DNA from: Pseudorhodoplanes sinuspersici
Lineage (GTDB): Bacteria > Pseudomonadota > Alphaproteobacteria > Rhizobiales > Xanthobacteraceae
Reading direction: 5' to 3'
Assembly (NCBI RefSeq): GCF_002119765.1
Contig: NZ_CP021112.1
Span: forward strand, 3,776,501 to 3,840,500
Length of the DNA stretch: 64,000 nucleotides
Below the pieces are notes generated by a model. The model was given only the letters and a program-made list of their open reading frames with translations, searched no databases and had not been told where the DNA came from. Shown one piece after another: positions 8,787 through 36,728 of this stretch (position 1 is the first letter of the stretch; each line of letters starts with the position of its first letter). The translations under genes and the position numbers were made by a program.

Positions 8787-8927
8787 CAGTCCACCCGTAC
8801 GCTACCACCGCCCATTGCGTGACATGACAGCGTGCCTGCTTCAAGAGCGGCTGTCCATTAACCTGAATAGGGGATCGGATTCCGGGGTTGATCTTCAGAG
8901 CAACAGCCCTGAATGCGGAGGTCTGAC

Positions 8928-9587
8928 ATGCGCAATGGCTTGATATCGATCGCGGCTTTTGCCGCAGCCATCATCTTACCGACACTTCCCGCTGCGGCGC
9001 AGCAAACCGACATGACATTCTTCGTCACGAGCAACGGTCTCGGCAAGGGTGGCGACCTGGGCGGTCTTGACGGAGCCGACAAGCATTGCCAATCGCTGGC
9101 ACAGGCTGCCGGCGCTGGTGGGAAGACTTGGCGGGCTTACCTTTCGACGCAAGGTGCGGGCGCTGTGAATGCGCGTGATCGCATCGGCAAGGGCCCGTGG
9201 CAGAATGCCAAAGGCGTTGTGATCGCCAAGGATGTCGCGGAGCTTCACAACAACAATAACATCAACAAGCAGACCGCGCTCACCGAGAAGGGCGAGGTGG
9301 TCAATGGCCGCGGCGACCAGCCGAACCGTCATGATATCCTCACCGGCTCGGAGCCTGATGGCGTCGCATTTACCGGCAGCAACGACCGAACCTGCGGCAA
9401 CTGGACGAAAAGCGGGGACGGCTCGGCGATGGTCGGCCACCACGATCGCATGGGTTTCGACGAACAACCGCCGGCGAAATCCTGGAATTCGTCGCATTCG
9501 TCACGTGGCCCGGGAGGAGGGTGTTCGCAGGCCGATTTGCGCAGCACCGGCGGTGACGGTCTGCTCTATTGCTTTGCGGCGAACTGA
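8928..9587 (+). CDS. Exported lectin-like (DUF1554-type) protein
   Basis: 219 residues. Start at 8928 is preferred because GGAGG lies six bases before it. A signal peptide ends near ...PAAAQ. The mature part has the pattern TFFVTSNGLGKGGDLGGLDGAD-x-HCQ, KTWRAYLST, a middle region with NRHDILTGSEPDG and C-terminal cysteines (CGNWT, GGCSQ, YCFA). This pattern is shared by secreted proteins related to endostatin/DUF1554 and often annotated as lectins in Bradyrhizobium relatives. Four cysteines could form two disulfides. Role unknown; probably periplasmic or secreted. Confidence 0.75.
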   Translation: MRNGLISIAAFAAAIILPTLPAAAQQTDMTFFVTSNGLGKGGDLGGLDGADKHCQSLAQAAGAGGKTWRAYLSTQGAGAVNARDRIGKGPWQNAKGVVIAKDVAELHNNNNINKQTALTEKGEVVNGRGDQPNRHDILTGSEPDGVAFTGSNDRTCGNWTKSGDGSAMVGHHDRMGFDEQPPAKSWNSSHSSRGPGGGCSQADLRSTGGDGLLYCFAAN

Positions 9588-9677
9588 TTGTCCAATTCGC
9601 GCTGCGGTGCTTTATAGCACCACAGCCCCGCACCCGACCGACGCGTGCGGCGGCTTATTCGCTGGAACGGGGGCCGT

Positions 9678-20715: not shown

Positions 20716-20831
20716 TCGGTCGTCCCCGTGAAAGCGGGGACCCATACGCCGAGACCTTTCGATGATCGTTCGCTGGGCGTTACAATCATACACCGCTGTG
20801 GTTATGGGGCCCCGCTTTCGCGGGGACGACC
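20716..20831. repeat. Intergenic inverted repeat, 'CCCGCGAAAGCGGG' family
   Basis: TCGGTCGTCCCCGTGAAAGC and GCTTTCGCGGGGACGACC are the arms, ~115 bases from end to end. The following stretch to 21076 holds no gene that I can recognise; it must contain the promoter of the alpha/beta hydrolase gene. Confidence 0.85.
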
Positions 20832-32819: not shown

Positions 32820-32861
32820 AGGGCTGCCCCACGGAGGCTGTCGTGGGGCAGCCCGATTTTT
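32820..32861 (+). terminator. Intrinsic terminator after the CBS-BON gene
   Basis: GGGCTGCCCCACG / CGTGGGGCAGCCC hairpin followed by ATTTTTAT on the plus strand. It abuts the stop codon of bufD and the same hairpin can end minus-strand transcripts. Confidence 0.9.
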
Positions 32862-33327
32862 ATCTGTATTGTCGCGCGATCCAGTGATCGAGCGACAGCT
32901 TTCCCGGCCCCTTCGCCATCAGCACGAGGAAGCACGCCGCCCATGTGCCATGCGTCGGCCATGCATCGGGATAGACGAAGATCTCGATCACCAGCGTCAT
33001 GATCAGCAGTGACAGCGCGGCGAAGCGGGTGGCCAGACCCAGCACCAGCAGGACCGGAAAGAAGTGTTCGGCAAATGTCGCAAGATAGGCGGCGAGTGTC
33101 GGATCGATCACCGGCAATCTGTATTCTTCCTTGAACAGTTCGATCGCGCTGCTGGACACTTGCCAGCCCTCGACCTTGGTCTGGCCCGACCGCCAGAAAA
33201 CCGCGGCAATCGGAATGCGCAGCACGAGGGCAAGGAACCAATAGGGGATTTCGGCCATCAGCGCATTGGCACGCAGGACGAGTGCGGACAGTCCGGACGG
33301 CCGTGCAGTCGGAAGCGTCTCGGTCAT
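32860..33327 (-). CDS. bufD: DoxX-family membrane protein of the bufferin cluster
   Basis: 155 residues with about four membrane segments, beginning with a short cytosolic N-terminus. DoxX pattern: [70 protein letters not shown]. In bufferin operons a DoxX protein is usually the last gene and may help supply reducing equivalents or export; its exact role is not settled. The start overlaps the bufC stop by four bases (ATGA). Last gene of the operon. Confidence 0.85.
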
Positions 33328-34097
33328 GATGTGCGATCCTCGGCAAGAGCGAAATGGGTCACGGCGCCGGACGCGATCAGGCCGGCGATATTGGCCGTGA
33401 GATCGAAACGATTGTCGCGGTCAGTGGCGTGCGCTGCCGCTTCATCCAGACGCGAGCCGCGCGCCAAGGCGTACAGGAACGCGGCACCACCCGGCGGCAG
33501 TGTCCGGACAAGGACATCGAGGCCGGGGCGAATAACCAGCGCATCTTCCGCCTGCATGTCATCGATGGGACCAAGCGGCCATTCGCCCGCATTCATCGAC
33601 CAGATGGTCACGACGGGATGGTGCGAGCAGACGATCTGCAGCGATGGATGCAAGGTGAAGCGCATCGACCCCACACGGTCCGCGTCGGTGTCCTGAAATG
33701 CCGCTGCCGTCAGCGGTTCGGCATCGGCCGCGTGATAGGCCCGCGTGCGCGCAGCCTCGAGACGCGCGACGTCGGCCAGATACGGCAATTCCGCTGCCGG
33801 TTCGAAGGCTACGATGAAATCGGCAAAATCGTCGCCGTAGGTGTGCAGGATTTTCGAACGCGGCGGATAGGTCGCAACGAAAATGCGCGCCATCGCCGCG
33901 AAGAATTCCTCGCCGACGATGCGTTCGGTCGCCGGGAATTTCGCCTTCAATGTATTGATGAGACCCACCACCACATTGTTGCGGTAGACGGCGAAACGCT
34001 TAACCGGCTGTCGCGTGGTGTGAGATGTGACGTTGTCTGGGATTGCGCTTTGCGGATTGAACAGTGCCGTCGCAAATTCGGATTGCTGCGTGATCAT
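33324..34097 (-). CDS. bufC: DUF2063 partner protein BufC/HvfC
   Basis: 257 residues. The N-terminal DUF2063 domain has [32 protein letters not shown], typical of the HvfC/BufC family (annotated as putative DNA-binding domain). It is known as the helper that brings the RiPP precursor to the DUF692/MNIO oxidase BufB. Start at ATG 34097, one base after the bufB stop. Overlaps bufD by four bases. Confidence 0.85.
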
Positions 34098-34098
34098 G

Positions 34099-34953
34099 TC
34101 AGGCCGCCTTGCTGTGTGCGGCATGCTTCAGAATCGCCGCGGCGGCGCGAGCCTCATCGGCCAGAACTGGCCAGCTTGGGACGTCATTGTCCCATTCGAT
34201 CAAGGTCGGCAGCGGACCAGCCTTTGCGATGACATCGGCATAGAGTGACCAGACGTCACTGGTGACTGGCGAGCCATGTGCGTCGATCAGAAGCGGCGCG
34301 TCCACATCGTCTGTCTGCGCGTCATGACCGCCGAGATGGATTTCCTTCACACGCGCGAGCGGAAAAACCGCGAGATAGTCTTGCGCGTTGGTGCCGTGGT
34401 TTTTGGCCTGGACGAAAACGTTGTTGATATCGAGCAGCAATCCGCACCCGGTACGGTGGGCGATTTCGGCGAGGAATTCGGTTTCGGGGATCGTCGTATC
34501 CGCGAACTGGATATAGGTCGATGGATTTTCCAGCAGCATTTCTCGATTGAGCGTGTGTTGCACCCGATCGACATGATCGACAATGCGCGCCAGCGTTTCC
34601 GGCGTATAGGGCAGGGGCAAGAGATCATTGAGATAGACCTCCCCATGCGACGACCAGGCGAGATGTTCGGAGAAGCTAGCGGGCTCGTAACGGTCGCACA
34701 AGATCCTGAGCCGGGACAGGTGTTCGGTATCGAGCGGCGCCATCGAGCCGATCGACAAGCCGACGCCGTGAATGGAGAGCGCATAGGTTTCCTGCAAACG
34801 CCTTAGCATGGCGTGCGGTGGTCCACCGGCGCCCATGTAATTCTCGGCATGAACTTCGATGAAGCCGATCGGTTGTTCGGCGGAGACGATGTCGTCGAAA
34901 TGCTGCGGCTTGAAGCCGATGCCGGGAGCTGCGGGAAGCGATGCGCGGATCAT
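34099..34953 (-). CDS. bufB: DUF692 / MNIO oxidase BufB
   Basis: 284 residues of the multinuclear non-haem iron-dependent oxidase family (DUF692, TIM-barrel). Iron ligands or near-ligands visible: His35/Glu37/Asn38 in VHAENY, His62, Glu96-His97, Glu142-Asn143, Asp175/Asn177 in DINNV, His206/His210 in HLGGH, Asp224/His226 in DAHGS and Glu253/Asp255 in EWD. Such enzymes oxidise cysteines of RiPP precursors, in bufferins to thiooxazoles that bind copper. Located between bufA and bufC, transcribed from the same promoter. Complete. Confidence 0.9.
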
Positions 34954-34985
34954 GCTAATTCTCCGAACGGATGAATGAGCGTCGT

Positions 34986-35016
34986 CCTTATCCCTCTTGG
35001 TAGAGGAGGGATAAGG
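34986..35016 (-). promoter_or_regulatory. Stem-loop between bufA and bufB
   Basis: CCTTATCCCTC (34986-34996) and GAGGGATAAGG (35006-35016) form an 11-bp perfect stem with a nine-base loop. No U-tract. It lies 14 bases after the bufA stop and 33 bases before the bufB start, a position suited to partial termination or RNA stabilisation so that more precursor than enzyme is made. Confidence 0.6.
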
Positions 35017-35030
35017 AGAGAGCGATGGGA

Positions 35031-35321
35031 TCAGCTCTTGATCGGCGTGAGCGAGCCCATCCCCTTCGGCGTCTTCATCGTGACGCAGGTGCCCTTATCG
35101 ACATACTTCCAGGCGTTGCCCTGATAATCGACCTTTGATGTGCCGGCACAGGTCGTCCCGGGGCCTGCGGCGCAGTCATTCTTGCCAGCCAGCGAGATGC
35201 CATAGCATTTGTCTTTGCCCGGCTGAGCCGCGACCGGCCCTGCCATGGCGGGAGAAGCGGCGATGGCGAGAGCGGCGGCGAAAGAGCTTGCGAGAGCTGC
35301 AGCGGAAAATTTGGTGTTCAT
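35031..35321 (-). CDS. bufA: Bufferin-type RiPP precursor (DUF2282)
   Basis: 96 residues. Signal peptide ([13 protein letters not shown], cleavage after Ala27) and a ~69-residue mature part with exactly four cysteines, Cys39, 50, 58 and 79, in the contexts [22 protein letters not shown] and DKGTCVTM. This is the DUF2282 pattern of bufferins: cysteines are modified by BufB/BufC and the exported product binds copper. ATG 35321 has GGAGG nine bases upstream. First gene of the operon, under a GTAACA-N16-CGAA promoter. Confidence 0.9.
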
Positions 35322-35413
35322 CCGGTATCCTCCAAAGGGTAATGACGGCGCACACTCCACCTGGCTAACCATCTGGATTGGCGCAGACCGGGTGTCCCGG
35401 CCTTATGCTGAGC

Positions 35414-35439
35414 TTCGCAAAGGCCGTGGCCAGTGTTAC
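35414..35439 (-). promoter_or_regulatory. SigF-type promoter of bufA
   Basis: On the minus strand GTAACA (35439-35434) is followed after exactly 16 bases by CGAA (35417-35414). The bufA ATG is about 90 bases downstream. The same motif, same spacing, drives the divergent sigma-factor gene. It matches, from memory, the Caulobacter SigF consensus GTAACC-N16-CGAA. Confidence 0.8.
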
Positions 35440-35499
35440 GTGCTCACGGTCTTGTGTTCGCCCCGATCGCGGGGTGGTCAGAAAATCTTGGCGCTGCGT

Positions 35500-35525
35500 G
35501 TAACAACACGGCCCATAAGCCCGAA
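35500..35525 (+). promoter_or_regulatory. SigF-type promoter of the sigma-factor gene
   Basis: GTAACA (35500-35505), 16 bases, CGAA (35522-35525), then the AAGGA ribosome binding site and the TTG start at 35548. A very short leader. Implies autoregulation of the sigma/anti-sigma pair. Confidence 0.75.
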
Positions 35526-35547
35526 GACGAAGAAGGATGAGTGCCAC

Positions 35548-36093
35548 TTGAAAGGTGATGCCGAATGGGCCGACCTGATGCGGGCGGCCAAGGCAGGCAA
35601 TGGGGCGGCTTATGATCGCTGCCTGCGCGAGATGGCGCAGGCGCTGCGGCCGCTTGTGCGTCGCGGCATGTATCGCGCCGGCGCTAATCCGGCCGAAACG
35701 GAGGATGTGGTGCAGGACATTCTGATCGCAGTGCATCTCAAGCGTCACACCTGGGACGACACCCGGCCGATCGGCCCGTGGATCGCCGGCATCGCACGCT
35801 ACAAGATCATCGATTCTCTGCGCAAGCGCGGGTCGCGGATCGAATTGCCGATCGAGGATTTTGTCGAGATCATCCCGGCCGAAACGGAAACCGAGATTGC
35901 GAGCGAACGCGATGTCACGCGCTCGTTGGAAGCCTTGCCGGAAGGACAACGCAATGTCGTGCGTGCCATCGCCATCGACGGCATATCGATCGCCAGCACA
36001 GCGCAGAAACTGAACATGAGCGAAGGCGCCGTGCGCGTCGCGCTGCATCGAGGATTGGGAGCCTTGGCGAAACGCCATAGTCAGGACACATGA
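35548..36093 (+). CDS. sigF: ECF sigma factor of the SigF (ECF16) type
   Basis: 181 residues from a TTG start at 35548 (AAGGA ten bases before it); the first in-frame ATG at 35578 lacks a ribosome binding site and would cut the sigma2 domain. Sigma2 region: DRCLREMAQALRPLVRRGMYRAGANPAETEDVVQDILIAVHLKRHTWDDTRPIGPWIAGIARYKIID; sigma4 region: LEALPEGQRNVVRAIAIDGISIASTAQKLNMSEGAVRVALHRGL. It would direct transcription from the two GTAACA-N16-CGAA promoters. Its stop overlaps nrsF by four bases. Confidence 0.88.
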   Translation: MKGDAEWADLMRAAKAGNGAAYDRCLREMAQALRPLVRRGMYRAGANPAETEDVVQDILIAVHLKRHTWDDTRPIGPWIAGIARYKIIDSLRKRGSRIELPIEDFVEIIPAETETEIASERDVTRSLEALPEGQRNVVRAIAIDGISIASTAQKLNMSEGAVRVALHRGLGALAKRHSQDT

Positions 36094-36728
36094 AGACCGA
36101 CGACCTCATTCGCGCGCTTGCTGCCGACCGTGAGCCGGCCGGTCCGAAGCCGGGTTTCGCGCTGTTCGTCGCAGCCGCATGCGGCTTCGTCGTGTCGGCG
36201 GTGTTGTTCATGTGGCAGATCGGGCTGCGTCCGGACCTGCTGTCGGCGATGCTCTCCTTCGATTTCATGCTGAAGCCGGTGGAGATGGGCCTTTTGGCCG
36301 TCGCCGCCGCAATTTTGGTGGTGAGGCTGGCGCGGCCCGGCGTGCCGTTCGGCCGCACATGGCTGGTCGTGGCAGCGGTGCCGGCGATCATGGTGGCGGC
36401 TTTGGCGGTCGAACTGATGCGCGTGCCGCATGCGGAATGGCTGGTCCGGCTCGCTGGCGCGCATTGGTATCTTTGCGTGATCAACATGGTGCTGCTGGCG
36501 ATGCCGATACTGGCCGCGGTGCTGTTCGGCCTGCGCTATGGCGCACCGACGCGTCCGGTGCTGGCCGGCGCGATGGCGGGGCTGCTGTCGGGCGCACTAT
36601 CGGCGACGCTTTATATTTCCCATTGCCCGGATGATTCGCCGATCTTCGTCGCCGCGTGGTTTACGCTGGCCATTGCTATTTCCACAGGCATCGGCGCGCT
36701 GGCCGGAGGCCGCTTGCTGCGCTGGTGA
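36090..36728 (+). CDS. nrsF: DUF1109 anti-sigma factor NrsF
   Basis: 212 residues with six predicted membrane segments. Two cysteines, Cys129 and Cys179 (in YISHCPDDSP), lie two residues from the positions of the Cys131 and Cys181 needed in Caulobacter NrsF for sensing metals. NrsF holds SigF at the membrane until metal stress. Start ATG overlaps the sigF stop (ATGA). Co-transcribed with sigF. Confidence 0.88.
   Translation: MKTDDLIRALAADREPAGPKPGFALFVAAACGFVVSAVLFMWQIGLRPDLLSAMLSFDFMLKPVEMGLLAVAAAILVVRLARPGVPFGRTWLVVAAVPAIMVAALAVELMRVPHAEWLVRLAGAHWYLCVINMVLLAMPILAAVLFGLRYGAPTRPVLAGAMAGLLSGALSATLYISHCPDDSPIFVAAWFTLAIAISTGIGALAGGRLLRW

Follow-up and report, generated by a model that had tools for sequence, protein, structure and literature searches.

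The window analysed here, a stretch of 64,000 nucleotides from the genome of Pseudorhodoplanes sinuspersici, carries six genes at 32860-36728: the minus strand encodes bufA, bufB, bufC and doxX, and the plus strand encodes sigF and nrsF, which run divergently. Together with the two promoters predicted between these units, they are:

32860..33327, minus strand: doxX, DoxX-family membrane protein, 155 aa (PF07681, 67.2 bits)
33324..34124, minus strand: bufC, DUF2063 partner protein (PME type 1), 266 aa (PF09836, 88.9 bits)
34099..34953, minus strand: bufB, MNIO (DUF692) enzyme, 284 aa (PF05114, 348.4 bits)
35031..35321, minus strand: bufA, exported DUF2282 (Buf1) precursor, 96 aa (PF10048, 85.5 bits)
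35414..35440, minus strand: predicted SigF promoter of bufABC-doxX, CGTAAC-N17-CGAA, exact match to the consensus
35499..35525, plus strand: predicted SigF promoter of sigF-nrsF, TGTAAC-N17-CGAA, exact match to the consensus
35548..36093, plus strand: sigF, ECF (ECF16-type) sigma factor, 181 aa, likely TTG start (PF04542/PF08281)
36090..36728, plus strand: nrsF, DUF1109/NrsF anti-sigma factor, 212 aa (PF06532, 194.8 bits)

The first-pass annotation had proposed six genes at 32860-36728, including a 96-residue DUF2282 precursor with four cysteines, a DUF2063 partner, a DoxX protein and, divergently, an ECF sigma factor coupled to a DUF1109 anti-sigma factor. Profile matches place all six, and each protein exceeds the curated Pfam cut-off of its named family. 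Reading frames overlap by 4 bases at doxX/bufC and at sigF/nrsF, and by 26 bases at bufC/bufB. BufB passes the NCBIfam MNIO_BufB equivalog (380.2 bits, cut-off 310), and SigF scores 252 bits against NCBIfam PRK12512 (cut-off 198). Since the latter match begins at 35551, which is residue 103 of a 282-residue ORF, and the ORF from ATG 35245 would overlap bufA, the start of sigF is likely TTG 35548 (181 aa) and not ATG 35245. For bufA, the start giving 96 aa is favoured over that of a 113-aa ORF because, as read by eye, GGAGG sits just upstream. NrsF does not reach the cut-off of the NCBIfam AntiSigF_NrsF equivalog (139.6 bits, cut-off 300), which is an NCBI naming rule and no defining feature in the papers; the Pfam family is shared nonetheless. 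The NCBIfam equivalog cut-offs of HvfC (38.1 vs 142) and HvfX (64.8 vs 80), models built for another family, are not reached by BufC and DoxX, and neither is that of BufA2 (20.3 vs 60).

Conservation was assessed in the best 80 genome loci by BufB sequence, a sample biased to close relatives. BufA has a Sec-type signal peptide, as judged by eye, and its cysteines (Cys39, Cys50, Cys58 and Cys79) are each kept in 79/79 homologues; the one locus of the 80 that lacks a bufA match has its upstream DNA cut. BufB aligns to the solved MNIO 3BWW (E 5.4e-38), and also to MbnB chains and to 8hci, a DUF692 protein that we take to be TglH. The earlier statement that the metal ligands of this enzyme are intact is borne out by the alignment to 3BWW and by the metal-site motifs, which are invariant in 80/80 homologues (H62, H97, E142, D175, N178, H206, D224, H226 and E253). 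H62, H97, E142, D175, H206 and E253 are presumably metal ligands, as their conservation suggests. The site-3 residues of HvfB, which is closely related to 3BWW, are N175, D242 and H244 (PMC13419390), and BufB N178 (or N177, kept in 79/80 homologues), D224 and H226 are taken as their likely equivalents. The features of a Buf1 cluster are thereby present, namely a four-cysteine DUF2282 precursor, an MNIO with metal-site residues, a DUF2063 partner and DoxX. ECF16 SigF/NrsF systems are recognised by an ECF sigma factor whose gene precedes that of an NrsF (DUF1109) having six helices and a pair of conserved cysteines, judged here by PF06532 and the cysteines; the window has an ECF sigma factor followed by a DUF1109 NrsF with Cys129 and Cys179, each kept in 62/63 homologues.

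The start codons of bufA and sigF are separated by 226 bases, and this gap holds two back-to-back copies of YGTAAC-N17-CGAA, one per direction, the consensus used for matching being that of ECF16/SigF promoters as printed in PMC8315932. Three matches were observed in the whole window against 0.14 expected, the third (20758-20784) being without an obvious target. Genome-wide, the exact motif is not enriched, with 17 matches as compared with 29 of the reversed control. What informs is therefore only where it lies, and an attempt to define the SigF regulon by genome-wide motif search was dropped on these numbers. In the best 80 BufB loci, 47 copies of the motif fall within the 53,410 bp situated 300-1000 bases upstream of bufB, as compared with 3 in the remaining 734,541 bp. 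The two divergent ECF16-type promoters are evidence that the first-pass annotation lacked, and its identification of a bufferin cluster under SigF/NrsF control is well supported.

That regulator and pathway form one divergent locus had been put forward as an inference. It is established knowledge, since PMC3511200, PMC6180224 and PMC12452194 describe this arrangement for Caulobacter, Sinorhizobium meliloti and Buf1 clusters. In Caulobacter, sigF-nrsF (CC3253, CC3252) and the target operon CC3254-3257 are numbered consecutively and are therefore divergent neighbours, and the six genes of this bufferin 1 locus have the same domains and order as those of the window (PMC3511200). The proteins are of similar size, with 93, 280, 254 and 150 aa for the operon and 179 and 214 aa for the regulators in Caulobacter (PMC3511200), and 96, 284, 266 and 155 aa and 181 and 212 aa in the window; the two conserved NrsF cysteines and similar promoters before both units are likewise described there. 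In S. meliloti, the four targets of rpoE7-ecfR7 (SMb20530-SMb20527) are divergent from the sigma/anti-sigma pair, as in the window (PMC6180224). The promoters printed in that report are TGTAAC-N17-CGAA for SMb20530 and TGTAAC-N16-CGAA for rpoE7 (spacers counted here), so the spacer of the sigma-factor promoter is 16 in S. meliloti vs 17 in the window. Buf1 clusters in a 2025 survey also include sigma-factor and NrsF genes, and in the available portion of that survey no difference from the window was noticed (PMC12452194).

Enough flanking DNA surrounds 68 of the 80 loci (the other 12 lack it), and 57 of these 68 have the divergent layout nrsF-sigF/bufABC-doxX. The script found 56; L128, which it scored as 'other' due to a long stop-to-stop frame, is divergent when read by eye and was added. 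In the remaining 11 full-flank loci, no sigF-nrsF pair was detected. An MNIO occurs in 22 of 41 genomes (this one and 40 relatives), so the system is patchy. The window locus is one more alphaproteobacterial bufferin/SigF module, complete and ordinary, in an arrangement common in related bacteria.

The best explanation, to which we assign a probability of about 0.9, is a Buf1-type bufferin operon, bufABC-doxX, under an adjacent, divergent and autoregulated ECF16 switch. Of this reading, the genes and their residues, the promoter motifs and the conservation of the layout were seen here. From homologues we infer the modification of BufA, its binding of copper, the inducer, and the release of SigF from the membrane. 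By this analogy, NrsF would keep SigF at the membrane until metal or thiol stress in the envelope acts on Cys129 and Cys179 of NrsF, which are periplasmic, and so sets it free; SigF would then fire both divergent GTAAC-N17-CGAA promoters. BufB and its partner BufC would turn Cys50 and Cys58 of BufA, which are central by position, into thiooxazoles before export, Cys39 and Cys79 would pair as a disulphide, and the mature periplasmic peptide would chelate copper, with DoxX perhaps adding an undefined redox or membrane function. Buf1 carries modifications on its central cysteines and a disulphide between the outer two, and the Caulobacter Buf1 chelates copper as both Cu(I) and Cu(II) (PMC12452194). 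Changing Caulobacter NrsF Cys131/181 to serine derepresses the regulon (PMC3511200).

The cluster might instead answer a non-copper stress (gold/silver, hypochlorite or thiol oxidation), copper not being the physiological metal in this species. ECF16 systems elsewhere respond to HOCl (PMC8315932), and the gig cluster of C. metallidurans is induced by Au, Ag and Cu (PMC8224329). Fusions of the S. meliloti rpoE7 and SMb20530 promoters gave no response to H2O2, Cd or chromate, copper being absent from the agents named in the available part of the report (PMC6180224), and the inducer may therefore differ between species. Caulobacter does not require sigF or CC2906/CC3255 to resist metal stress, dichromate or cadmium (PMC3511200). 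The chelation of both copper ions by Caulobacter Buf1 nevertheless speaks for copper, as does the sigF cluster of the same organism, which is copper-induced in all tested conditions and whose sigF::Tn5 mutant is copper-sensitive (PMC8224329). A purely non-copper role for the window locus is, on this evidence, unlikely.

The locus had also been described as self-contained. A divergent unit with its own switch is what was found, but 'self-contained' overstates the case, given a second bufABC without a SigF motif, two more NrsF genes, and a SigF-type motif beside a thioredoxin-like gene. The second bufA-bufB-bufC set lies near G000:C1:286-288 kb of this genome (L018, L023), its products having 59, 54 and 41% identity to the window copies, and no sigF-nrsF pair was seen beside it; downstream of it comes an NDH-2-like gene, and at a greater distance there are LysR and DoxX genes. 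The two NrsF genes lie near 490-494 kb (L024 5505-6155, plus strand, and 8851-9606, minus strand). One of them adjoins its own ECF sigma gene and the other is without a recognised sigma gene beside it; a multicopper oxidase gene (L024 1661-3145) is close by. The third site is an exact motif at G000:C1:1400790-1400816 (L006 1501-1527); 83 bases after it comes an ORF for an exported thioredoxin-like protein (PF00085, 49.7 bits), which was the one plausible target outside the window locus when start codons downstream of motif matches were checked. Two further ORFs downstream of matches were compared with Pfam, one being chemotaxis-receptor-like and the other without a match.

It could be speculated that SigF also controls such unlinked targets, and that the locus is the hub of a regulon and not a closed circuit. 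Caulobacter SigF controls, besides its neighbours, an unlinked buf operon (CC2907-2905) and CC2748 (PMC3511200), and the present genome offers the thioredoxin-like ORF, the second bufABC and PF00174 genes. The second buf operon differs from its Caulobacter counterpart, however, in that YGTAAC-N16..18-CG[AT]A was found nowhere in the 15 kb around it; 14 kb surrounding the two additional nrsF genes likewise contained none. As the motif is not enriched genome-wide, the thioredoxin site may be a further SigF target or may be chance. We regard a wider regulon as rather doubtful, if made somewhat likelier by the thioredoxin site, and a single operon under its adjacent switch is still preferred. The main use of the locus is as comparative data, with two bufferin operons in one genome of which apparently only one has SigF promoters. 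A Caulobacter-like control of msrP was also considered and rejected: PF00174 genes are present, but the single motif observed close to such a gene (G000:C1:2855967-2855993) faces away from it.

Among the 80 loci (L053-L132), the SigF-type promoters upstream of bufB take two -10 forms, GTAAC-N17-CGAA and GTAAC-N17-CGTA, the window locus having the CGAA form. Of the 64 loci in which sigF was matched, 34 lack the exact CGAA motif upstream, most of these 34 using CGTA by a gapped-word count, and at least one of the two forms is present in 61 of the 64. Where the motif occurs in both directions (42 loci), the forms are concordant in 39 (22 CGTA/CGTA and 17 CGAA/CGAA) and mixed in 3. The downstream control gave 1 match in 212,887 bp. 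A literature search found no account of the CGTA form for promoters of ECF16 sigma factors. The SigF switch of bufferin operons may be split into two promoter dialects that usually change together at both divergent promoters, which would suggest that SigF and both its promoters co-evolve and form a single transferable module; this is a tentative proposal, given somewhat less than even odds.

Two bufA matches lie upstream of bufB in 16 of the 80 loci (L066, L068-L070, L073, L081, L086, L087, L089, L091, L093, L101, L107, L109, L110 and L115, with that of L109 weak), and tandem precursors are likewise mentioned in PMC12452194.
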